Positions 7,790-28,336 of a DNA stretch of 32,107 bases are shown here, one piece after another. Source of the DNA: Acidimicrobiaceae bacterium (GTDB taxonomy: Bacteria > Actinomycetota > Acidimicrobiia > Acidimicrobiales > RAAP-2); assembly GCA_003133325.1 (NCBI GenBank), contig PKXA01000083.1, positions 817-32,923 of the forward strand, written 5' to 3'. The notes under the pieces were generated by a model. The model searched no databases, was not told the DNA's origin, and saw only the letters and a list, made by a program, of their open reading frames with translations. How positions within the stretch are numbered: the first letter of the stretch is position 1; every line of letters begins with the position of its first letter. A program made the position numbers and the translations under genes.

Positions 7790-9786
7790 ACGCCTTCATC
7801 GTCGCGGTGATCCTCGGACTCGCCACCGGGTCCATCTACGCACTGGCCGCCATGGGGCTGGTGCTCACCTATAAGACATCAGGGATCTTCAACTTCGCCC
7901 AGGGAGCGGTCGCGGCGGCGGCGGCCTACCTGTTTTACACGCTGCGCCAGAGCGATGGCATTCCCTGGCCGATCGCCGCGCTCATCTCGGTAGCACTCAT
8001 CGGGGTCGTCGGCGGACTGCTGCTCGAACGCATGGGCTACGCGCTGCGAGAGGCCCCGGTGGCCTCCAAGGTGGTGGCCACCGTTGGCCTCTTGGTCGGC
8101 ATCCCGGCACTGCTTGCTGCCTGGTACGGATCTTCCAGTCGTCCGTTTGACCACTTTTTGCCATCTCATCCGGTCCATCTCTTCGTGAACGTCGGCACCG
8201 ACCAGATCATCATCTTCTTACTGGCATCTGCCTCCGCCGTCGGGCTCAGCCTGTTCTTCCGGCGGGCCAGGCTGGGCATCGGCATGCAGGCCGTTGTCGA
8301 TGATCCTGATCTGTTGTCGCTGCAGGCCCGCAACCCCATCGTGGTACGCCGCTGGGCGTGGACGATCGGCACCTCCTTCGCCGCCGTCTCGGGCATCTTG
8401 ATCGCTCCCACCATCGGTCTCGATGCTCCGATTCTGACCCTGCTGGTCGTCCAGGCCTTCGGCGCCGCCGCCATCGGATCGTTCACCAGTATTCCGCGGA
8501 CCTACGTGGGTGGACTCATCGTAGGAGTGACCACGGCCCTCTCCCAGTTGTATCTGGCCAGTCATTCGGGTTTCCAGGGCGTTCCGCCGTCAATGCCGTT
8601 CATCATCTTGTTCGTCGTCCTCTTGGTCACCCCCAAGCGCCTGTTGTTGGAGAAGGGCACTCGACTGGCGCGGCGCCTCGACTTTGCGCCGGCGCTCAAC
8701 AAGAGAATCTCGGTGCCGACAACCCTGGTCGGGCTGGGTCTTCTCATCGCTCTACCCCAGTTCGTCGGGTTCCGTCTGCCGCTCTACATGACCGGACTGC
8801 TCTTCGTGATCCTGTTTGCCTCCCTCGGACTCCTGGTGCGCACCTCGGGTCAGGTCTCGCTCTGCCACCTCGCCTTCGCGGCCGTCGGAGCTTCCTCATT
8901 TGCCCACTTCGAGAGCTTCGGCATTCCCTGGCCGTTGGCGGTGCTCTTGGCCGGGCTGGTCACGGTACCGATCGGAGCCATCCTGGCTATCCCGGCCATC
9001 CGACTGCCCGGCATCTACCTGGCCATCGCCACCTTCGGATTCGGGATCCTCATGCAGCGGTTCGTCTTCACCAACCGAGTCATGTTCGGGTCCACCGACA
9101 GCCTGACCGCCCCCCGCCCCCACCTCGGCAGCTTTCACCTTGGGACCGACACCGGCTACTACTACGTGATCCTCGGGATCACCGTGGCCTGTTGCGTGGT
9201 CGTGGTGCTCGTCCAGCGGAGCCGGCTCGGGCGACTGCTGCGCGCACTTGGGGACTCACCCGTCGCCCTCGATGCGCACGGAACGAACACGAACTTCGTT
9301 CGGCTCCTGGTATTCGCCATCTCGGCCGGGTTGGCCGGGATCGCCGGAGCGCTCAGCGGTCCGGTTACCGGGTTCACCGACGGACTCACCTTTGACTACT
9401 CGATCTCGCTCCTGCTGTTGGCGGTGCTCGCCCTCTCGGGCCGCCGAGCTCTCGCCTCGGCCTTCATCGCCGGCGGCCTTCTGCAGGTAGTGCCGGGCTA
9501 CATCACGAATGCCACCGTCAGCGCCTATGTACCGGCGTTCTTCGGGGTGGCTGCCGTTGCCGTGGCGGTGGTCCCGGGTATCGGCTTTGCCAAGCGGTTC
9601 TTGGTCGCCCGACGGGTGCGCGAGCGCCGCGGCGCTTCGCCGGTTGCTGAACGCCGCGCCCTGGTTCGACCCGAGGTTGTAGTGGCAGGAGCACCCTTGT
9701 CGGGGACCGGGCGAGCCGGCGGTCGCAACGGTGACAATCGAGTAGCCGAGCGGGTCGAGATGGCCCGGCTGGGAGCCCACCAATGA
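7786..9786 (+). CDS. LivH-LivM fused permease of a branched-chain-type ABC importer
   Basis: A 666-residue integral membrane protein joining two permease halves normally made as separate LivH and LivM. Residues about 1-285 match LivH (GLATGSIYALAAMGLVLTYKTSGIFNFAQGA is the classic start; not all quoted residues are unique to it). Residues about 310-600 match LivM (LLVRTSGQVSLCHLAFAAVG, AIPAIRLPGIYLAIATFGF, RSRLGRLLRALGDSP). The last 60 residues are arginine- and glycine-rich and look disordered. Start GTG 7786 is chosen for the 4-bp GTGA overlap; GTG 7768 and 7777 are alternatives. With the two ATPases and the LivK-like protein it should form a complete importer. Substrates of this family include branched-chain amino acids, urea and many aromatic or acyl carboxylates. 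Confidence 0.88.
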   Translation: MNAFIVAVILGLATGSIYALAAMGLVLTYKTSGIFNFAQGAVAAAAAYLFYTLRQSDGIPWPIAALISVALIGVVGGLLLERMGYALREAPVASKVVATVGLLVGIPALLAAWYGSSSRPFDHFLPSHPVHLFVNVGTDQIIIFLLASASAVGLSLFFRRARLGIGMQAVVDDPDLLSLQARNPIVVRRWAWTIGTSFAAVSGILIAPTIGLDAPILTLLVVQAFGAAAIGSFTSIPRTYVGGLIVGVTTALSQLYLASHSGFQGVPPSMPFIILFVVLLVTPKRLLLEKGTRLARRLDFAPALNKRISVPTTLVGLGLLIALPQFVGFRLPLYMTGLLFVILFASLGLLVRTSGQVSLCHLAFAAVGASSFAHFESFGIPWPLAVLLAGLVTVPIGAILAIPAIRLPGIYLAIATFGFGILMQRFVFTNRVMFGSTDSLTAPRPHLGSFHLGTDTGYYYVILGITVACCVVVVLVQRSRLGRLLRALGDSPVALDAHGTNTNFVRLLVFAISAGLAGIAGALSGPVTGFTDGLTFDYSISLLLLAVLALSGRRALASAFIAGGLLQVVPGYITNATVSAYVPAFFGVAAVAVAVVPGIGFAKRFLVARRVRERRGASPVAERRALVRPEVVVAGAPLSGTGRAGGRNGDNRVAERVEMARLGAHQ

Positions 9787-10547
9787 GGGGAGAAGGCTTG
9801 GGCATCGAAAAGCTCTCGGTCCGTTTCGGCGGTTTGCTGGCGGTCGACGAGGTCACACTGTCGGCCCCAGGAGGTGCGATCACCGGGCTGATCGGCCCCA
9901 ACGGAGCCGGCAAGACCACCACCTTCAACGCCTGCACTGGAACGGTGCCGGTCACGTCAGGGTCGGTGAGTCTCTTCGAGCACGATCTCTCGCACCACGG
10001 GCCGGCCAGCCGGGCCCAGTCCGGGCTCGGCCGCACCTTTCAGCGCATGGAACTCTTCGATTCGATGACCGTGGCGGAGAACGTGGCTCTCGGACCAGAG
10101 GCTGCACTCGCCGGCCGACACCTGTGGTCGCACCTGATATCCCCACCGCGCCAACGTAGGGACATCGCACAGCGAGCCGACGATGCCCTGGCCGGGTGCG
10201 GGCTTTCGCACCTGGGCCAACATCGGGTCCGCGATCTTTCGACCGGCCAGAGGCGCCTTGTTGAGCTGGCCCGGGCGCTGGCCAGTGGTTTTCGCTTCCT
10301 GCTCTTGGACGAGCCCTCCTCTGGTCTCGACAAGATCGAGACCGAGCGCTTCGCTGAGATCATCTCCGGAGCAGTCGCATCAGGGCTCGGGATCTTGTTG
10401 GTCGAGCACGACATGGCATTGGTGCGAAGCGTCTGTGAGTACGTCTATGTACTCGACTTCGGACAGCTCATCTTCGAAGGATCCATGGCGGAGGCTCAGA
10501 ACTCAGAGGTCGTCCGGGCCGCCTACCTCGGTTCAGAGGCGGCCTAG
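9783..10547 (+). CDS. LivG-like ABC transporter ATPase
   Basis: A 254-residue ATPase. Walker A is GPNGAGKTT near residue 38, the Q-loop region contains GRTFQRMELFDSMTVAENV typical of LivG, Walker B with catalytic Glu is FLLLDEPSSGLD, and the switch histidine is in VEHDM. The ABC signature reads LSTGQRR rather than LSGGQ, a tolerated variant in this family. The start overlaps the permease stop by ATGA. It should pair with the LivF ATPase to power the fused permease. Confidence 0.93.
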   Translation: MRGEGLGIEKLSVRFGGLLAVDEVTLSAPGGAITGLIGPNGAGKTTTFNACTGTVPVTSGSVSLFEHDLSHHGPASRAQSGLGRTFQRMELFDSMTVAENVALGPEAALAGRHLWSHLISPPRQRRDIAQRADDALAGCGLSHLGQHRVRDLSTGQRRLVELARALASGFRFLLLDEPSSGLDKIETERFAEIISGAVASGLGILLVEHDMALVRSVCEYVYVLDFGQLIFEGSMAEAQNSEVVRAAYLGSEAA

Positions 10548-16737: not shown

Positions 16738-18375
16738 ATGGCACGGGATCGGGTGATCAGGCGTTGGCATGATGACGCGCAAGCACAGGAGTACCGCCGG
16801 TTGGGAATCTGGGGCGACCGCGCACTGATAGAGCTCTTCGATGAGTGCGTGGCGAGGCACCCTGAAAAGATCGCGATCATTGATGATCGCGTCCGGTGGA
16901 CGTACGCCGAATTGCGCGATCTGTCCCTGCGGGCCGCCCAACTCCTGCTCGACCTGGGGGTGGGCCCGGGGGATCCTGTTGCCGTACAGGTGCCGAGCTG
17001 TGGTCTGCTGCCTCTGGTCCACCTGGCCGCAAATCGCATTGGTGCAATCATGGTCGCTGTTCCCACCCGTTGGCGACGGGCGGAAGTGGGGTCCCTGCTG
17101 CGGACCGTCGAGGCCGAAGTGCTCATCGCAGTGCAATCCGAGCGCGGCGAGGACTTGTGTCCGCTGCACGAAGAGTTGCGGCAGCAACTGCCGGGCCTGC
17201 GGACGATCCTGTACGCGCGTACCGGATCAGCAGACTCGTTCGAGGAACAGATGCTGGCTACTGACCCGCTTTCGACGGAGGACCAGGAACGGCTACGCCT
17301 CGATCCCGACGAGCCCGCACACGTCATGTGCTCTTCGGGGACGACCGGAGTGCCGAAGGCCTCCTTGTGGAGCGGCAACGATTTGATAGCGATGCTCGTT
17401 CATCAGACAGGGGAGGCGTTGGAGCTCACGCCTGATGACGTGGCTGCAGCCATCGCCCCTGCCGGACAGGGCTCTACTGGCTACATCTTCCCGATTCTGG
17501 CCCCGCTGCTGATCGGCGCCACCAGCGCCATCCTCGAGCACTGGTCCCCGCCGGAAGCGCTGGAGCTGATCGTGCGTGAAGGCTGTACCTACGGCACAGC
17601 CATTCCGACCCAGATGACCATGCTGTTGGATCTGCCGCTCGAGTCCGTGGATCTTTCACGATTCACCCGCTTCAACAATGCCGGTGCTCCCTTGGCGCCG
17701 CGCGTAGCGGAACAGGTCGAGGCTCGAATGGGCTGCCGTGTCCAAAACGTCTACGGCACGACCGACGGTGGCGTGCCGACCATGACCAAGGTGAGCGATC
17801 CGGACTCTGCGAGGTGGAACACGGTCGGCCGGGTGTGCATCGGCGAAGAAGTGGAGCTGCGGGACCCGGATGGATCACGGGTGCCGCCAGGTAAATCAGG
17901 CGAGCTCTACTGGCGCGGTGCGAACAACTCCTACGGATACCTCAATCAGCCGGACTACGACTCGGCCAACTGGGGCGAGGACGGATGGTACCGCTCCGGC
18001 GACCTGGGGTGTTTCGATGACGACGGATATCTGCAGATCGTGGGCCGAGCCAAGGACATGATCCTGCGGGGTGGGGTGAACATATTCCCGATCGAGGTGG
18101 AGAGCCTTCTCAGCCACCATCCCCAGGTTCTTGCAGTGGCGATCGTTCCGGTGGCCGATGAACGCCTGGGTGAGCGCGCGTGTGCGGCCGTGGTGCCGGC
18201 AGGCGTCCCGCCGAAACTGGAGGACCTGACGGACTTCCTGACGGACAAGGGACTTTCGAAGTTCAAACTCCCCGAGTTTCTCGTCATCCTGGACGAACTG
18301 CCGATCAACCCTGGTGGAAAAGTAGACAAGCGCCGGCTGCAGAGCGTCGTCGCCGAGAGTCTCGAAGTGGACTGA
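16738..18375 (+). CDS. AMP-forming acyl-CoA synthetase
   Basis: A 545-residue member of the ANL (acyl-adenylate) family; it activates a carboxylic acid with ATP to the adenylate and transfers it to CoA. Core motifs in order: SSGTTGVPKA (about residue 198), NVYGTTDGG (about 336), YRSGDLG (about 417), the hinge RAKDMILRGGVNIFP, and the C-terminal catalytic lysine in NPGGKVDKR (about 526). Full length. Start ATG 16738 has AGGAGG seven bases upstream; an ATG at 16734 is out of frame. First gene of the beta-oxidation operon, so it probably activates the imported acid. Chain type cannot be told from sequence; neighbours suggest a side chain or ring-derived acid. Confidence 0.92.
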   Translation: MARDRVIRRWHDDAQAQEYRRLGIWGDRALIELFDECVARHPEKIAIIDDRVRWTYAELRDLSLRAAQLLLDLGVGPGDPVAVQVPSCGLLPLVHLAANRIGAIMVAVPTRWRRAEVGSLLRTVEAEVLIAVQSERGEDLCPLHEELRQQLPGLRTILYARTGSADSFEEQMLATDPLSTEDQERLRLDPDEPAHVMCSSGTTGVPKASLWSGNDLIAMLVHQTGEALELTPDDVAAAIAPAGQGSTGYIFPILAPLLIGATSAILEHWSPPEALELIVREGCTYGTAIPTQMTMLLDLPLESVDLSRFTRFNNAGAPLAPRVAEQVEARMGCRVQNVYGTTDGGVPTMTKVSDPDSARWNTVGRVCIGEEVELRDPDGSRVPPGKSGELYWRGANNSYGYLNQPDYDSANWGEDGWYRSGDLGCFDDDGYLQIVGRAKDMILRGGVNIFPIEVESLLSHHPQVLAVAIVPVADERLGERACAAVVPAGVPPKLEDLTDFLTDKGLSKFKLPEFLVILDELPINPGGKVDKRRLQSVVAESLEVD

Positions 18376-18468
18376 CGAGCAGGGGAGGCGCGACCGAGGG
18401 TGGCGCCGGATGTGTAAGTAGGGGCCGGCACCAGCCGGATCGGTATACGGGTTAGGGAAGGTATCTAC

Positions 18469-19251
18469 ATGGCAGACTTGGAATACGAGGTATCGGATGG
18501 CATCGGGACGATCCTGTTGAACCGTCCTGACCGAAAGAACGCCTTCACACTGGGCATGGTCGATGAGTGGGCGGCCGCGCTGCGCGCGGCGCGCTCCCAA
18601 CCTGAGGTCCGGGTGGTTGTGGTGACCGGGGCCGGACAAGCGTTCTGCTCGGGCGTCGATCTTGATGCGTTCCACGCGGAGGAACGGTCCGTACTCGAGC
18701 ACAAGATGATGCTGACCGAACGCATACACAGAGTGGCGCACGCACTGGAGGATCTCGACAAACCGGTGATCGCCGCTGTCAAGGGCGTCGCGGTTGGAGC
18801 GGGCATGGACATGGCATTGATGTGCGATATGCGCTTCGCCGGCGCGTCGGCCCGGTTTTCCGAGGGGTACGTCAAGGTGGGCCTGGTGCCCGGAGATGGC
18901 GGGTGCTACTTCCTTCCTCGCCTGGTGGGCACAGCCAAGGCCCTCGAACTGCTGTGGACGGGTGACTTCGTCGATGCGGATGAGGCCGCCCGGTTGGGCA
19001 TCGTGAACCATGTCTATCCGGATGATGAGCTCATCCCTCGCACCTATGAGCTTGCACGCCGGCTTGCTGACGGCCCGCCGATCGCAATCCAAATGATCAA
19101 GCGCGCCGTCTACCAATCATCGCAGTTGGACCTGCGGACTGCGCTCGACCTGATCTCGTCGCACCTGGCGATCGTCCAATCCACGCACGACTCGAAAGAG
19201 GCGTTCGAGGCCTTCCGTCAGAAGCGAAAGCCTGTCTTTGAAGGTCGCTGA
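18469..19251 (+). CDS. Crotonase-family enoyl-CoA hydratase/isomerase-like protein
   Basis: A 260-residue crotonase-fold protein acting on acyl-CoA esters. Oxyanion-hole segments FCSGVDLDAF and KGVAVGAGMDMALMCDMRFA are clear. Compared with classical hydratases, the two catalytic glutamates are not conserved: the GCELAMMCD glutamate is Asp (GMDMALMCD) and the FGQPE glutamate aligns with Tyr (FSEGY). Simple enoyl hydration by the standard mechanism is therefore doubtful; isomerase, dehalogenase-like or ring-hydrolase-like chemistry are alternatives. An unusual PGDGGCYFLPRL follows. It lies 93 bp after the synthetase gene on the same strand. Confidence 0.87.
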   Translation: MADLEYEVSDGIGTILLNRPDRKNAFTLGMVDEWAAALRAARSQPEVRVVVVTGAGQAFCSGVDLDAFHAEERSVLEHKMMLTERIHRVAHALEDLDKPVIAAVKGVAVGAGMDMALMCDMRFAGASARFSEGYVKVGLVPGDGGCYFLPRLVGTAKALELLWTGDFVDADEAARLGIVNHVYPDDELIPRTYELARRLADGPPIAIQMIKRAVYQSSQLDLRTALDLISSHLAIVQSTHDSKEAFEAFRQKRKPVFEGR

Positions 19252-19330
19252 CGTGCCGTCGACGCCAAGCTCGCCATACAGCGTGATCACGTTGAGCTTT
19301 ACAGCGGTGAGAAGGACGTGTCGTGCCTTT

Positions 19331-19430
19331 GGGCTCCCCTCAGGGCTACTTGCGCGGAGGGTTCCGAACCCCCCCCTTGGAGCCGCTGGCCTTTGAGCTG
19401 GCGCCGCGCAAGTAGTCCTGAGGGGAGCCC
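19331..19430. repeat. 100-bp element with 27-bp inverted repeats
   Basis: GGGCTCCCCTCAGGGCTACT at 19331-19350 continues to 19357, and the reverse complement lies at 19404-19430 with one mismatch in 27 positions. The 46-bp loop has its own near-palindrome (GGTTCCGAACC) and a run of eight C. As RNA this would be a very stable stem. It sits between the crotonase and acyl-CoA dehydrogenase genes inside an operon. It could be a strong attenuator or terminator, a processed RNA, or a small non-autonomous mobile element; no target-site duplication was identified. Confidence 0.85.
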
Positions 19431-19478
19431 CTTGTGATCTGCCCATATGTTCATTTGTTCTGTGAGTGAGGAGACAGT

Positions 19479-20621
19479 GTGAAGCGTCGTGTCTATGGCC
19501 AGGACCACGAGGATTTCCGAAAGACGGTGCGGAGGTTCTATGTCGACGAACTGCGGCCACAGTTCACGGAATGGGAAGAAGCCGGCTGCCCGCCGCCATC
19601 GTTCTGGCAGCGGGCCGGAGAATTGGGGTTGCTGGGCATCCAGGTGCCGGAGCGGTTTGGCGGTGGCGGCGTGGACAGTTACCTGTTCAATGCGATTCTC
19701 ACCGAAGAGACCCAGTTCGCGGGTCTGGCTCTGGGGGGATTGCGGGTGCACACGGATATCTGCATGCCTTACTTCCTGCGCTATGCGAATGCGGGCCAGC
19801 AGGAGCGTTGGCTGCCCCGGCTGGCTTCCGGCAGCGCGGTGACCGCCCTGGCGATGTCCGAACCCGGAGCTGGGTCGGATGTGAAGTCGATGGCGACCCG
19901 AGCGGTACGCGACGGAGACCACTACGTTGTCAACGGGGCCAAGACCTTCATCTCAAACGGGAGCACAGCCGATCTCGTGATCACTGCGGTCAAGACTGAT
20001 CCCGAAGCCGGACGGGCGGGTGTCAGCCTGTTCGTCATCGATGGGGATGCACCCGGCTTCGGACGCAGGCCGATTCCGAAGAAGATGGGGCTGAAGGGGC
20101 AGGACCTCGGAGAGCTGTCGTTCAGCGATGTGCGCGTGCCGGTCGAGAATCTTCTCGGCGAGGAGGGTCATGGCTTCGAGTACCTCATGGCGAACCTCCC
20201 ACAGGAGAGACTGTCGATCGCGATTAACAGCCAGGCTGCGGCCGTCCAGGCCTTGCACGGTACGATCGAGTACGTACGGGAGCGCAAGGCATTCGGGACT
20301 ACCGTGGCCTCGTTTCAGAACACCAAGTTCGAACTCGCCTCCTGTTCCACGGAGATCGAAGCCGGACAGGCGCTGGTGGATCGGGCGTTGGAAGCGCACG
20401 AGGCCGGTGAGCTCACGGCCGTTGATGCCGCAGTCGTGAAGTTGTTCTGCACCGAACTGCAGGGCCGTGTGGTGGATCGTTGCCTGCAGCTGCACGGTGG
20501 CTACGGCTACATGCTCGAATATCCGATTGCCAAAGCGTATGTCGACGCGCGCGTGTCGCGAATCTACGGTGGGTCCAGTGAGGTGATGAAGGTAGTCATC
20601 AGCAAGTCACTGGGCCTGTGA
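19479..20621 (+). CDS. Acyl-CoA dehydrogenase (FadE-like)
   Basis: A 380-residue FAD enzyme that makes the 2,3-double bond in acyl-CoA. The FAD/substrate signatures are visible: ALAMSEPGAGSDVKSM, GAKTFISNGSTADL, KMGLKGQDLGELSFSDVRVP, LHGGYGYMLEYPI. The usual C-terminal catalytic Glu position (IYEGT) reads IYGGSSEV. A candidate base at the alternative position used by isovaleryl- and long-chain-type enzymes is the Glu of PQERLSIA. Start GTG 19479 follows GTGAGGAGACA. A GTGA overlap leads into the thiolase remnant downstream. Confidence 0.92.
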   Translation: MKRRVYGQDHEDFRKTVRRFYVDELRPQFTEWEEAGCPPPSFWQRAGELGLLGIQVPERFGGGGVDSYLFNAILTEETQFAGLALGGLRVHTDICMPYFLRYANAGQQERWLPRLASGSAVTALAMSEPGAGSDVKSMATRAVRDGDHYVVNGAKTFISNGSTADLVITAVKTDPEAGRAGVSLFVIDGDAPGFGRRPIPKKMGLKGQDLGELSFSDVRVPVENLLGEEGHGFEYLMANLPQERLSIAINSQAAAVQALHGTIEYVRERKAFGTTVASFQNTKFELASCSTEIEAGQALVDRALEAHEAGELTAVDAAVVKLFCTELQGRVVDRCLQLHGGYGYMLEYPIAKAYVDARVSRIYGGSSEVMKVVISKSLGL

Positions 20622-20953
20622 GAAGGCACACGGTGGATTCGGTGGTCATCGGAGAGGAGGCCCATTCGCCGGTGGGCCGGGGAGCACTGGGCCGCGGAAC
20701 ACTGGGCGGGGGAGTGTCCGGATTGCACGCAGTGGACCTGTTGCCTCAGGTATTGGGCGCCCTGGTCGTTCGCACCGGTATCGATCCGGTTCGTGTCGAG
20801 GACATGCCGTCTGTGACGATCGACGTCGCGGGAATCGTCGGACATCGCCCACCCCGAGGTGAAGGAGGCCGATCCCGGGTATCGGCGAACTCGGTCGGAC
20901 GGGTGGACAAGTGTTCGCCGCATCGGCGGAACGTGCCTGAGCCGAGGGGATGA
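20618..20953 (+). pseudogene. N-terminal thiolase remnant
   Basis: The 111-codon frame starts with GTG overlapping the upstream stop (GTGA). Its first 65 residues follow the thiolase N-terminus: VVIGEEAHSPVGRG, then GGGVSGLHAVDLLPQVL and RTGIDPVRVED, matching the family pattern VRTPVGxxxGxLxxxxxxDLLxxVLxxLVxRTGIDP. After that the similarity is lost and the frame becomes Arg-rich. The active-site Cys, His and Cys of a thiolase are all missing. The coupling overlap remains, so this was once the operon's thiolase. The last beta-oxidation step would need a gene outside the window. Confidence 0.75.
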
Positions 20954-20954
20954 G

Positions 20955-22139
20955 ATGATGACGGCGCGAGGAACCTCAACGGATACCCCCCTGATCCCTC
21001 CGATGGTCAATCTTGGACCGGAGGTCGATGTCCTGCGAGCGGAGGTGCGGGACTTCCTCGCCGAGGAGCTGGCCGCCGAGCGCTTCGAGCCCCATTGCGA
21101 CGCCTGGCTGTCCGGCTGGGATGCGGGGTTCAGCCGCCGACTCGGCGAGCGTGGCTGGCTGGGCATGACAATCCCGAGGGAGTACGGCGGTCATGGGCGC
21201 TCATCACTCGAGCGCTACGCGGTTACCGAGGAACTGCTCGCGGCGGGTGCGCCGGTGGCTGCGCACTGGGTGGCGGACCGGCAGACTGCGCCGTCGCTGC
21301 TCAGATACGGTTCGGATGCGCTGAAACGTCGATATCTGCCGGCCATCGCTCGCGGTGAGTGCTTCTTTGCCATTGGACTGTCCGAGCCGGATGCCGGTTC
21401 CGATCTCGCCGCGGTTCGCACCCGGGCGGTGCATCGAGATGGCGGCTGGGAGCTGAATGGCACCAAGGTGTGGACATCTGGGGCCCATCAAGCGCACGCC
21501 TTCTTCGTACTGGCCCGCAGCTCGCCGATCGACGTCGCCGATCGGCACGCCGGGTTGTCCCAATTCCTGGTGGGATTGTCCTCTCCCGGGGTGACCGTGC
21601 GGCCCATCCGGATGACCTCCGGCGAGCATCACTTCAACGAGGTTCTCCTGGACAGCGTGTTCGTGCCCGATGACGCGGTCATTGGCGCAATCGGTGCCGG
21701 CTGGCAGCAGGTGACCTCGGAACTGGCATTCGAGCGGAGTGGGCCCGAGCGCTTTCTGTCGACCTTCCCGCTACTGGTCGCCGTGGTGGACCATTTGTCG
21801 GCCAAGGACATCCCTTGCGACTCGACGCGGGAGCTGGGTGAACTCATCGCCAGATTGTGGACCCTGCGGCAGATGTCCCTGGCAGTGGCTGGCGCGCTGG
21901 CCGGCGGCGAAGCTCCCGATGTGGCGGCGGCCCTGGTGAAGGATTTAGGAACGAGGTTGGAGTGTGACGTGATCGACACAGCTCGGCTGCTGGTTCATAC
22001 CGAGCCGGACCTCTCGTCGGGAGAGCGCCTGCCCAGGTTGCTGGCCGAGGCCGTGGCGCATGCGCCGGGATTCACCCTTCGTGGAGGCACGAACGAGATA
22101 TTGCGCGGCGTTGTCGCGAGGGCACTGGGGATGCGATGA
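20955..22139 (+). CDS. Acyl-CoA dehydrogenase, large-subunit type
   Basis: A 394-residue acyl-CoA dehydrogenase. Motifs include GWLGMTIPREYGGHG, FFAIGLSEPDAGSDLA, ELNGTKVWTSGAHQAH and a C-terminal RGGTNEILRGVVARALGMR. The C-terminal active-site loop lacks the classical YEG glutamate (LRGGTNE). It overlaps the next acyl-CoA dehydrogenase by ATGA, the arrangement known for actinobacterial heteromeric (alpha2beta2) enzymes such as those of steroid side-chain degradation, where one subunit supplies the base and each contributes to the FAD site. Start ATG 20955 (or 20958) follows GAGGGG. Probably acts on a bulky or branched acyl-CoA. Confidence 0.9.
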   Translation: MMTARGTSTDTPLIPPMVNLGPEVDVLRAEVRDFLAEELAAERFEPHCDAWLSGWDAGFSRRLGERGWLGMTIPREYGGHGRSSLERYAVTEELLAAGAPVAAHWVADRQTAPSLLRYGSDALKRRYLPAIARGECFFAIGLSEPDAGSDLAAVRTRAVHRDGGWELNGTKVWTSGAHQAHAFFVLARSSPIDVADRHAGLSQFLVGLSSPGVTVRPIRMTSGEHHFNEVLLDSVFVPDDAVIGAIGAGWQQVTSELAFERSGPERFLSTFPLLVAVVDHLSAKDIPCDSTRELGELIARLWTLRQMSLAVAGALAGGEAPDVAAALVKDLGTRLECDVIDTARLLVHTEPDLSSGERLPRLLAEAVAHAPGFTLRGGTNEILRGVVARALGMR

Positions 22140-23194
22140 CCGGAACGATGGATGCCAACGAGCTGGAGCTGCTCAGGCGTAGCTGTTCCGACCTGTTCAA
22201 CCGGTACCAGGATGAGCAGGACGGGCGGGCGGGGTGGGACGACCGACTGTGGCAAGCGATCGAACAGTCAGGCTTCGCCCTGGTATCGGTGCCGGTAGAG
22301 CACGGCGGGGAGGGTGGCACCTTGCGCGAGGCTGCGACGGTGCTCACCGTGGCAGGTGAACACTGCGTGATGGCGCCGATCGGTGAGACCGCAGTGCTCG
22401 GTGCCTGGTTGCTTGGGCAGGCAGGTCTGGAGATCCCGGCCGGACCCCTGACCGCCGTCAGCGCTCCGCCCGAGCTACAGGTCAACCCTGTTGGCGGCGG
22501 CTGGTCAGTGCTGGGTCGGTTACCGCGAGTCCCCTGGGGCCGGTACGTGGCGCGCGTCGCGGTGCTTGCCGGAGACCATGTGCTGTCACTGGCGCCGGAG
22601 GCGGTGTCCGTCGAGCCCGGGGCCAACCTCGCCGGGGAGCCGCGCGACACTCTGCTGGTCGACTGCATCGTGGATCGGGCAGAACAGGCTCGTGTCCAGC
22701 CCGGAACCGACGAGCTGCTACGCCGGCGGCAAGTCCTGGTGCGCATCGCACTCATGGCCGGGGCGGCACAGCGTGCGCTCTCATCGACGCTTCGCTATGT
22801 CAGCGAGCGCGAGCAGTTCGGCAGGCCGTTGAGCGGATTCCAGGCAGTTCAGCAACAGGTGGCTGAACTGGCGGGTGAAACAGCGGCGATGCGAATTTCG
22901 GTGGACGCCGCGATCGATCTCTGCGGTAGGCACGGACTGGAGCACGATCGAGCCGGCGATGTACTCGCAGCCGCCAAGGTGCAGGCGGGTCGGGGAGCGG
23001 GGAGGGTTGCTCGCATTGCCCACCAACTGCATGGGGCGATCGGGTTGACGGACGAGCATTCGTTGGGGCTGGCGACGACGCGTCTGTGGGCATGGCGGGA
23101 CGAGGCGGGGAGTGAGGCGGAGTGGGCTTGTGAGTTGGGGGCGCGAGTTCTTGACAGGGGCGCCGAGGGACTCTGGTGCTTCATCACCGGCTAG
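22136..23194 (+). CDS. Acyl-CoA dehydrogenase, small-subunit type
   Basis: A 352-residue divergent acyl-CoA dehydrogenase, shorter than usual. The middle beta domain is reduced and the SEPxAGSD and catalytic-Glu motifs are absent. What remains recognisable is the C-terminal helical domain: RYVSEREQFGRPLSGFQAV and AHQLHGAIGLTDEHSLGLAT. This is the pattern of the second chain in heteromeric enzymes. The start overlaps the large-subunit stop by ATGA. The two chains very likely form one enzyme; alone, this one is probably inactive. Confidence 0.88.
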   Translation: MTGTMDANELELLRRSCSDLFNRYQDEQDGRAGWDDRLWQAIEQSGFALVSVPVEHGGEGGTLREAATVLTVAGEHCVMAPIGETAVLGAWLLGQAGLEIPAGPLTAVSAPPELQVNPVGGGWSVLGRLPRVPWGRYVARVAVLAGDHVLSLAPEAVSVEPGANLAGEPRDTLLVDCIVDRAEQARVQPGTDELLRRRQVLVRIALMAGAAQRALSSTLRYVSEREQFGRPLSGFQAVQQQVAELAGETAAMRISVDAAIDLCGRHGLEHDRAGDVLAAAKVQAGRGAGRVARIAHQLHGAIGLTDEHSLGLATTRLWAWRDEAGSEAEWACELGARVLDRGAEGLWCFITG

Positions 23195-25558: not shown

Positions 25559-28336
25559 GTGACGACATACCTACAGTTCCTGCTGCTCGGTCTCGGGAGC
25601 GGCGCGGTCTTCGCCGCCCTGGCGATGGCGCTGGTGTTGACGTATCGCTCCTCCGGGGTGATCAACTTCGCCACCGGCGCCATCGCCATGTTCACCGCCT
25701 ATAGCTACGCCTCCCTCCGGAACGGGAAGCTTCTCGTCCCCATACCCGGTCTCCCCTCGACGGTGACGATCACGGGCTCGATGGGATTCCTCCCTGCTGC
25801 GGCCATTGCACTCGTCGAGGTCGGCATCCTCGGGCTTCTGCTCTACCTCGTCGTCTTCCGCCCTCTCCGCAACGCTCCGGACGTGGCACGGGCCGTGGCG
25901 TCGCTCGGTGTCATGGCGGTGATCCAGGCGGTCATGGTCGACCGTGTCGGATCATCCCCGCTCAACGTGGGCAGCATCTTCCCCTCGAGCACGATCTCGA
26001 TCGGCTCGATCAGGGTCCCCCAAGACAGGCTCTGGTTCACCCTGGTCATCGTGCTACTCGCGTGCCTCCTCGCCAGTGGCTACCGATTCACGCGGTTCGG
26101 GACTGCAACTCGCGCGGTGGCTGCGAGCGAGAAGGGTGCCTTCGTCAGTGGCATCTCACCGACGTCGATCGGGGCCGGCAACTCGATCGTGAGCGCTGTC
26201 GTCTGCGGTATCGCCGGGATCCTCATCGCTCCCATCGTCGCTCCCCTGCCACTCACCTACACCCTCTTCATTGTCCCTGCGCTGGCCGCTGCTGTCACCG
26301 CCCGATTCGACTCTCTCGTCATCGCGGTCGCCGTCGGCCTGCTGATCGGGGTCGTGCAGTCACTCGTGCAGTACGTCACCGCCCAGCACTCATGGCTCCC
26401 ACAGGTCGGAACGGTGGACTTCGTCCCCCTCATCCTCATCCTCGGCATCCTCCTCTTCCGGGCCAAGGCCCTCCCCGGTCGAGGAGAGATGCAACGTCGA
26501 TCGCTCGGCCACGCTCCGAGGCCTCGATCTCTCCTCCTCCCGAGCGTGGTCGGACTCATCGCCGTGGGCGTCTCGCTCGTCATCGCTCACGGGACGCTGC
26601 GCGATGCGATCATCACCTCGCTGGTCTTGGCGATCGTGACGCTCTCGATGGTCGTCGTGACCGGTTACGCCGGCCAGGTCTCGCTGGCCCAGCTGACGCT
26701 GGCCGGCGTCTCCGGCTTCCTGCTGAGCGACCTGACGACGAAGGCCGGAGTGCCCTTTCCGATCGCGCCTCTTCTCGCAGCCCTCGGAGCAACCGCTATT
26801 GGTCTCGTCATCGGTCTTCCATCCCTCCGGATCAGAGGGTTGAGCATCGCCGTCGTCACGTTGGCCTTTGCGGTCACCGTTCAGGATGTCTGGTTCAACA
26901 ATCTGGATCTGAACGGCGGACCGGCCGGGGCCCACGTGACGGGACCGACCCTCTTTGGGCTCGACCTCTCCGCTGGAGCCGGGAAGGCATTCCCCCGCCT
27001 CTCGTTCGCGCTGCTCTGCCTGGTGACGACGACGCTGGTGGCGCTCGGAGTCGCTCTGCTCCGAAGGAGCCGGCTCGGCTCTGACATGTTGGCCATCCGA
27101 GCCAACGAACGTTCGGCTGCGGCAGCTGGTGTCAACGTCGTCCGGGTCAAGCTCCTTGCGTTCGGAAGCGGCGCCTTCATCGCCGGCATCGGCGGAGCGA
27201 TGATGGGCTACCAACAGACGGTGGTCGACTCGACGCAGTTCAATGCCCTCATCGGCCTGGGCCTGTTCGCCATTGCCTACGTCGCCGGCATCACCTCGGT
27301 CTCGGGTGGCCTGCTGGCCGGCGTCCTGTGCAGCGGAGGCGTCTTGTACCTCGGGCTCACCCACATCGGATCCCTCGGGGTCTGGTACGACCTGATCACC
27401 GGGATCGCGCTGATCCTGACCGTGATCCTGAACCCCGAGGGCCTCGTGCGCCCGCTCCATTCATGGGCCAGCTCCCGGAGATTCAGCCGCCCGGTGGTGA
27501 CCGCCTCGCCGGGTGCCGCGACCCAGGAGGCATCTTCCGAGGTCGGTCTCGAGGCGGTACCGGGCCGATCACGGGCGACCCCACCGGAGGGACGCGACGG
27601 CGCACCGCTCCTCCAGCTCAAGGAGCTCAGGGTCAGCTACGGCGGGATGGTGGCGGTCGACGACGTCACGCTCTCCGTATCCCGCTCCGCCATCGTCGGC
27701 CTGATCGGTCCCAACGGAGCCGGGAAGACGACGCTGATCGATGCAGCGACCGGGTTCGTGGAGTCGACAGGTTCGGTCGTGCTCAACGGCCAGGCGATCG
27801 AGGGACTCCGACCCCACCAGCGTGCCCATGCAGGACTCGTTCGCACGTTCCAGGCACTTGAGCTCTTCGCCGATCTCTCGGTGGAGGAGAACGTGATCAT
27901 CGGTGCGCACCGCACAACCGGGCAAGGCGACAGTGGCCTGGCGGCAAGGGACCTTCTCGGCCTCGACGACATCTGGGACCGTCCAGTCGCCGAACTCTCG
28001 CAGGGCCAGCGGCAGCTCGTGTCGATAGCGCGAGCCGTGGCGGCACAGCCAAAGGTCCTCCTCCTGGACGAACCCGCGGCTGGGCTCAACAGCTCGGAGA
28101 GCCGGTGGCTCGGCGAGAAGCTTCGGGTCATCCGGGATGCCGGCATCGCCATCCTTCTGGTCGATCACGACGTCCAGCTGGTGCTCGACCTCTGCGACGC
28201 GATCCACGTCTTGGACCTCGGCCGGACCATCGCCGAGGGCTCACCGGCGGAGGTACGCAGCGACCCGGTGGTGGTCGCTGCGTACCTCGGGACACCACCC
28301 GACGAGGCACCGAGCGAATCGCTGATCCTCCGGTGA
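25559..28336 (+). CDS. LivH-LivM-LivG triple fusion (two permeases plus ATPase)
   Basis: A 925-residue single polypeptide carrying three normally separate importer parts. LivH permease: about 1-300 (FAALAMALVLTYRSSGVINF). LivM permease: about 320-645 (GYAGQVSLAQLTLAGVSGF, GLPSLRIRGLSIAVVTLAF, RSRLGSDMLAIRANERSA). A linker of about 45 residues (SPGAATQEASSEVGLEAVPG) then leads to LivG ATPase about 690-925, with Walker A GPNGAGKTT, signature LSQGQRQL, Walker B VLLLDEPAAGLN and switch VDHDV. The frame is open throughout, with no sign of assembly error. Start GTG 25559 has no strong ribosome site. With LivF and LivK it completes the importer in three genes. Confidence 0.92.
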   Translation: MTTYLQFLLLGLGSGAVFAALAMALVLTYRSSGVINFATGAIAMFTAYSYASLRNGKLLVPIPGLPSTVTITGSMGFLPAAAIALVEVGILGLLLYLVVFRPLRNAPDVARAVASLGVMAVIQAVMVDRVGSSPLNVGSIFPSSTISIGSIRVPQDRLWFTLVIVLLACLLASGYRFTRFGTATRAVAASEKGAFVSGISPTSIGAGNSIVSAVVCGIAGILIAPIVAPLPLTYTLFIVPALAAAVTARFDSLVIAVAVGLLIGVVQSLVQYVTAQHSWLPQVGTVDFVPLILILGILLFRAKALPGRGEMQRRSLGHAPRPRSLLLPSVVGLIAVGVSLVIAHGTLRDAIITSLVLAIVTLSMVVVTGYAGQVSLAQLTLAGVSGFLLSDLTTKAGVPFPIAPLLAALGATAIGLVIGLPSLRIRGLSIAVVTLAFAVTVQDVWFNNLDLNGGPAGAHVTGPTLFGLDLSAGAGKAFPRLSFALLCLVTTTLVALGVALLRRSRLGSDMLAIRANERSAAAAGVNVVRVKLLAFGSGAFIAGIGGAMMGYQQTVVDSTQFNALIGLGLFAIAYVAGITSVSGGLLAGVLCSGGVLYLGLTHIGSLGVWYDLITGIALILTVILNPEGLVRPLHSWASSRRFSRPVVTASPGAATQEASSEVGLEAVPGRSRATPPEGRDGAPLLQLKELRVSYGGMVAVDDVTLSVSRSAIVGLIGPNGAGKTTLIDAATGFVESTGSVVLNGQAIEGLRPHQRAHAGLVRTFQALELFADLSVEENVIIGAHRTTGQGDSGLAARDLLGLDDIWDRPVAELSQGQRQLVSIARAVAAQPKVLLLDEPAAGLNSSESRWLGEKLRVIRDAGIAILLVDHDVQLVLDLCDAIHVLDLGRTIAEGSPAEVRSDPVVVAAYLGTPPDEAPSESLILR

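Follow-up and report, generated by a model that had tools for sequence, protein, structure and literature searches.

A 100-nt inverted repeat lies between an enoyl-CoA hydratase/isomerase family gene (ECH) and an acyl-CoA dehydrogenase gene (ACAD1) of an Acidimicrobiaceae bacterium, and it is probably a hairpin in the operon transcript, one that would terminate part of the upstream mRNA or shield it from decay. When RNA polymerase passes the repeat, a 27-pair, G+C-rich stem would form behind it, and part of the polymerases would pause or stop, either directly or with the participation of Rho/NusG, while the same stem would block 3'-to-5' exonucleases. The part of the message carrying the ligase and ECH could then reach a higher level or last longer than the part carrying the acyl-CoA dehydrogenases, which would give one operon two expression levels and so affect gene dosage.

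The inverted repeat and its gene setting

All positions refer to the window, that is, the whole stretch of 32,107 nucleotides that was analyzed. An inverted-repeat search places the 27-nt 5' arm at 19331..19357 and the 27-nt 3' arm at 19404..19430 of the plus strand, on both sides of a 46-nt loop (19358..19403); CTTGTGAT follows the 3' arm. The arms are 96% complementary, and since their single mismatch (19345 G against 19416 T) becomes a G.U pair in the plus-strand RNA, 27 of 27 pairs form there. The 100-bp repeat with 27-bp arms and one mismatch described in the initial annotation was thus recovered in full, and its assessment as far above background proved right as well. The repeat is the strongest of the 16 that the search lists for the window at spans up to 200. 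When each match adds 1 and each mismatch subtracts 2, the element scores 24, and the top score in 4.05 Mb of simulated sequence (126 first-order Markov copies of the window, together about the size of the genome) was 15. The genome itself is a 4.05 Mb draft of 133 contigs, of which 682,092 non-N bases including the window were surveyed, 2,923 of them overlapping; in the resulting ~679 kb, or 17% of the genome, the element ranks first among 10 repeats scoring at least 15, followed by scores of 21 and 20. A strength so far above chance favors the transcript hairpin.

The predicted fold of the plus-strand RNA, which is the sense strand, is very stable (-79.8 kcal/mol, z -7.85; none of 200 shuffles was equally good) and keeps all 27 pairs, which also argues for a hairpin in the transcript. 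In this fold the loop forms two small hairpins on a three-way junction, so that the structured loop noted earlier holds as a prediction. A three-way junction of this kind might belong to a lineage-specific RNA switch or attenuator that sets the output of acyl-CoA dehydrogenase in proportion to that of the ligase and hydratase, perhaps through a 30-codon frame described below, a proposal to which we give very little credence. The minus strand is predicted to fold nearly as well (-74.6 kcal/mol, z -7.71), with a different loop fold; the strand preference is therefore only slight, and this weighs against a role in the transcript. Almost perfect arms and good folding on both strands would also be expected of an element acting at the DNA level, such as a cruciform or the binding site of a dimeric protein, but the genome holds no second site, and 27-nt arms placed 46 nt apart exceed by far the usual operator half-sites, which are far shorter than 27 nt. 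We consider a DNA-level element highly improbable.

The bases that follow the stem bear on the transcript hairpin in two ways. On the plus strand, 4 of the next 8 bases are T, compared with 0 of 8 on the minus strand, which agrees with a hairpin acting in the sense transcript; the longest T run is two, and four T in eight is ordinary for the local composition (P ~0.17), which speaks against it.

The genes around the repeat are all on the plus strand: an AMP-dependent ligase (16738-18375), ECH (18469..19251; PF00378, E 2.4e-61), ACAD1 (19479..20621; PF00441, PF02770, and PF02771), and two further members of the acyl-CoA dehydrogenase family, ACAD2 (20859-22139) and ACAD3 (22136-23194). From their arrangement, these five genes can reasonably be taken as one putative operon. 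An NCBIfam scan of them returned related families, none at its curated cut-off among the matches listed. The ECH stop codon lies 79 nt before the repeat and the GTG start of ACAD1 48 nt after it. GAGGAGA (19468..19474, plus strand), likely the ribosome-binding site of ACAD1 to judge from its sequence, falls outside the hairpin. The repeat therefore separates two genes of the same strand and leaves the likely ribosome-binding site downstream free, a position that suits a transcript hairpin. Elsewhere in the window, positions 25559-28336 hold one 925-aa frame with two PF02653 stretches (branched-chain amino acid permease) and an ABC ATPase domain, apparently a fused permease-permease-ATPase.

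A 30-codon open frame from GTG to TAG (19323..19415, plus strand) spans most of the hairpin and could be a leader peptide, as yet unsupported, whose translation would unfold the stem and so allow transcription into ACAD1. Its GTG stands six bases after an AGAAGGA-like stretch. However, G+C-rich DNA often contains frames this long by chance, and an open frame is no proof of a gene; the frame has no codon run indicating a sensed amino acid, a search for an alternative antiterminator found none, and there is no homologue for comparison. Such a device seems to us exceedingly improbable.

Copies of the repeat and a separate palindromic family

The initial annotation had also allowed for a miniature mobile element, in our terms a MITE or REP-like unit that ends in 27-nt inverted repeats and survives, or was assembled, in only one copy. 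Its shape, with terminal inverted repeats and a length of 100 nt, fits this idea, and the genome carries another dispersed palindromic family together with two Y1 transposase genes. The searches for copies, however, argue against it. Positions 19325-19440 (116 nt) matched only themselves and their own arms in the genome at E 1, and the whole 227-nt gap between ECH and ACAD1 added four chance matches of 15-17 nt at E 10. None of the four congeners matched the repeat at E 0.1, and no copy was found in 172 genomes of the family, 395 of the class, and 396 of the phylum, samples that overlap and that each contain the genome under study. Plasmid and phage records gave no blastn match. Exact-arm patterns had no hit in viral_contigs or in genome_contigs, scans that may omit this genome and very near ones, while a pattern of the inner arm and the start of the loop found three stretches in genome_contigs. 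No inverted repeat scoring 9 or more surrounds two of these stretches (L068 and L069), and no matching repeat surrounds the third (L070), whose adjoining 16-bp hairpin is unrelated. No direct repeat of 3-11 bases, and thus no target-site duplication, occurs at the ends of the element. Rfam returned no match at the gathering score and two at 15.1 bits, far under their cut-offs of 40 and 35, and a word search of the literature found no paper on such repeats.

Short matches of 19-32 nt did occur in other genomes, namely in 10 of the 395 of the class (11 places; E 0.01), one of the 172 of the family (one place) and two of the 396 of the phylum (two places; both E 0.001). They first resembled a family because six of the 11 class matches fall in one genus, and these six look, from their sequence, like one stretch of dehydrogenase coding sequence. 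A repeat family was rejected for the short matches, which are confined to the loop and the adjoining arm ends and lack the paired arms; no inverted repeat scoring above 10 was found around any of the 14 places.

The dispersed family mentioned above has the arm motif TTCCRCSTCGCGGCGAA, which with up to two mismatches gives 23 matches in the genome, compared with 3 for a reversed control. Two congeners show a similar excess (21 against 1 and 20 against 2), and the two others, one of them 64% complete, do not (3 matches in each, against control counts of 3 and 2). Taken together, 16 genomes from other genera present no clear excess; individually, some have a deficit and some a small excess (e.g., 14 against 4 for G006 and 10 against 3 for G059). 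Fourteen of the 23 matches form seven inward-facing pairs of 32-118 nt with variable middles (L103, L105, L106, L108, L109, L110, and L118, on contigs C12, C16, C48, C49, C67, and C131). These repeats appear to form a true palindromic family at the level of the genus, REP- or MITE-like and apparently confined to part of it. The two next-strongest repeats of the genome survey share the arm TTCCRCCTCGCGGC and belong to this family, which is distinct from the operon hairpin: tested with TTCCRCCTCGCGGCGAA, the hairpin reaches at best 7 mismatches in 17 positions. The two Y1 transposase genes (PF01797; L162 and L163, contig C20) adjoin long frames whose sequences look like TnpB, so these loci are perhaps plain IS200/IS605 elements. 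Their 1.5 kb flanks contain neither the operon hairpin nor a close match to the dispersed-family motif, and no link between them and the dispersed repeats was found.

Of the features that define a MITE, the element shows the terminal inverted repeats and lacks both several copies and the target-site duplication. With a single copy in its genome, none in the sampled relatives and no flanking direct repeat, the mobile element suggested at first finds no support here, and we regard it as quite unlikely. The initial annotation had named one copy, at a position common to all relatives, as the result that would refute mobility; the single copy was indeed found, while for the position the relatives examined offer no comparison, as they do not share the flanking gene pair.

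The site in related genomes

Homologues of ACAD1 (E 1e-80) occur in 13 of 41 genomes including the one under study, or 12 of the 40 others, and in none of the four congeners. In the 11 wider loci that were compared, leaving out G417 and two lesser matches of G083, ECH was never directly upstream of the ACAD1 homologue, and the 300 nt upstream contained no comparable repeat (best score 11). At E 1e-60, ECH is found in at least 3 of 395 class genomes, its own included, with no congener among the matches listed. Against plasmids, ECH matched 24 records, the best in Rhodococcus, Streptomyces, and Embleya, and the best 5 of the 24 were compared. Three of these five loci (L164, L167, and L168), from actinomycete plasmids, carry homologues of ECH, ACAD2, and ACAD3 in this order on the same strand, without ACAD1 between them; we read a further frame between them in L164 as probably crotonase-like, judging by its sequence. 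The 300 nt downstream of the ECH homologues in eight loci contained no comparable repeat either (best score 13). These gene orders are suggestive of ACAD1 being an addition to an ECH-ACAD2-ACAD3 order, with the repeat standing at that junction.

None of the relatives examined was seen to carry ECH and ACAD1 as a pair, so they offer no site, occupied or empty, for comparison. The search for homologues did not recover this stem, hence there is no covariation, and the lack of a conserved stem counts against the transcript hairpin. Other inverted motifs were seen in two of the relatives: L062 has a repeated one at 8159-8284 (AACAGAAGGGGTCAGGCACC...), and L058 has the arm CTGGCTCCCGATTCG both at 8513-8560 and at 10000-10043.

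The absence of conservation, the seemingly added ACAD1 relative to three of the five plasmid loci, and the draft state of the genome (133 contigs) would all be compatible with a repeat that lacks a function and arose by chance or remained as a neutral scar, for instance after a template-switch duplication, or with an assembly error. Against an error stand the mismatch and the limited length of the arms, which are unlike an inverted chimaera, as this would presumably extend further. We judge this explanation unlikely.

Comparison with known terminators and hairpins

A terminator consensus scan of positions 18000-21000 returned no terminator-like site, but it allowed only loops of 3-8 nt and so could not have caught this hairpin. 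The element differs from a canonical (L-shaped) intrinsic terminator in having no T run longer than two and a loop of 46 nt. Mycobacterial reviews describe I-shaped terminators, which are hairpins without a U-tract (PMC12288462), and the present stem-loop resembles them in being stable, G+C-rich and located downstream of a gene without a U-run. It departs from them in its distance from the stop codon, 79 nt where terminators are placed "within 50 bp" (PMC12288462), and in its branched 46-nt loop, where the optimum is given as 4-8 nt (PMC8269248); both features fit terminators poorly and weigh against the preferred reading. Because the U-run, the short loop, and the short distance are all lacking, we do not file the hairpin as a terminator, only as an element possibly working like one. 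The terminator or processing site proposed in the initial annotation stays, in this form, plausible and is the reading we prefer; the missing T-run, the long loop, and the lack of a homologue with the stem tell against it.

Termination by U-less hairpins is still disputed (PMC5335608, PMC12288462): in vitro, a mycobacterial polymerase needed a U-tract (cited in PMC5335608). On the other side, in Streptomyces clavuligerus U was lacking from 353 of the 535 transcript ends that were highly structured (PMC8269248), and the I-shaped hairpin lying within alr-groEL1, a seven-gene operon of Mycobacterium tuberculosis, lowered the expression of a reporter downstream of it (PMC5335608). If the preferred reading is true, the present repeat would be one more example of an operon in a G+C-rich bacterium that is split by an internal hairpin lacking a U-run, a case that alone changes little.

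Among the known systems, MITE and REP elements resemble the repeat in their inverted terminal repeats and length of ~100 nt and differ from it in that the hairpin here is single-copy, with no target duplication seen. The U-lacking 3' ends of S. clavuligerus share with it a G+C-rich stem in a G+C-rich genome, although under the cut-off used there, at least 3 U in 8 nt, the present site with its 4 counts as U-rich; those ends are mapped and have short loops, whereas the present hairpin is predicted and has a 46-nt loop (PMC8269248). A counterpart in setting is TtsaD, the hairpin of the M. tuberculosis alr-groEL1 operon, likewise without a U-tract and placed inside an operon, between two of its genes. 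For TtsaD, an effect on a reporter was measured, while the present hairpin, which is branched and carries a 46-nt loop, is known from its sequence and predicted fold (PMC5335608). TtsaD has been proposed to divide alr-groEL1 into sub-operons, and its authors call it a hairpin-like cis-regulatory element (PMC5335608), a wording that, by analogy, would also fit the repeat between ECH and ACAD1.
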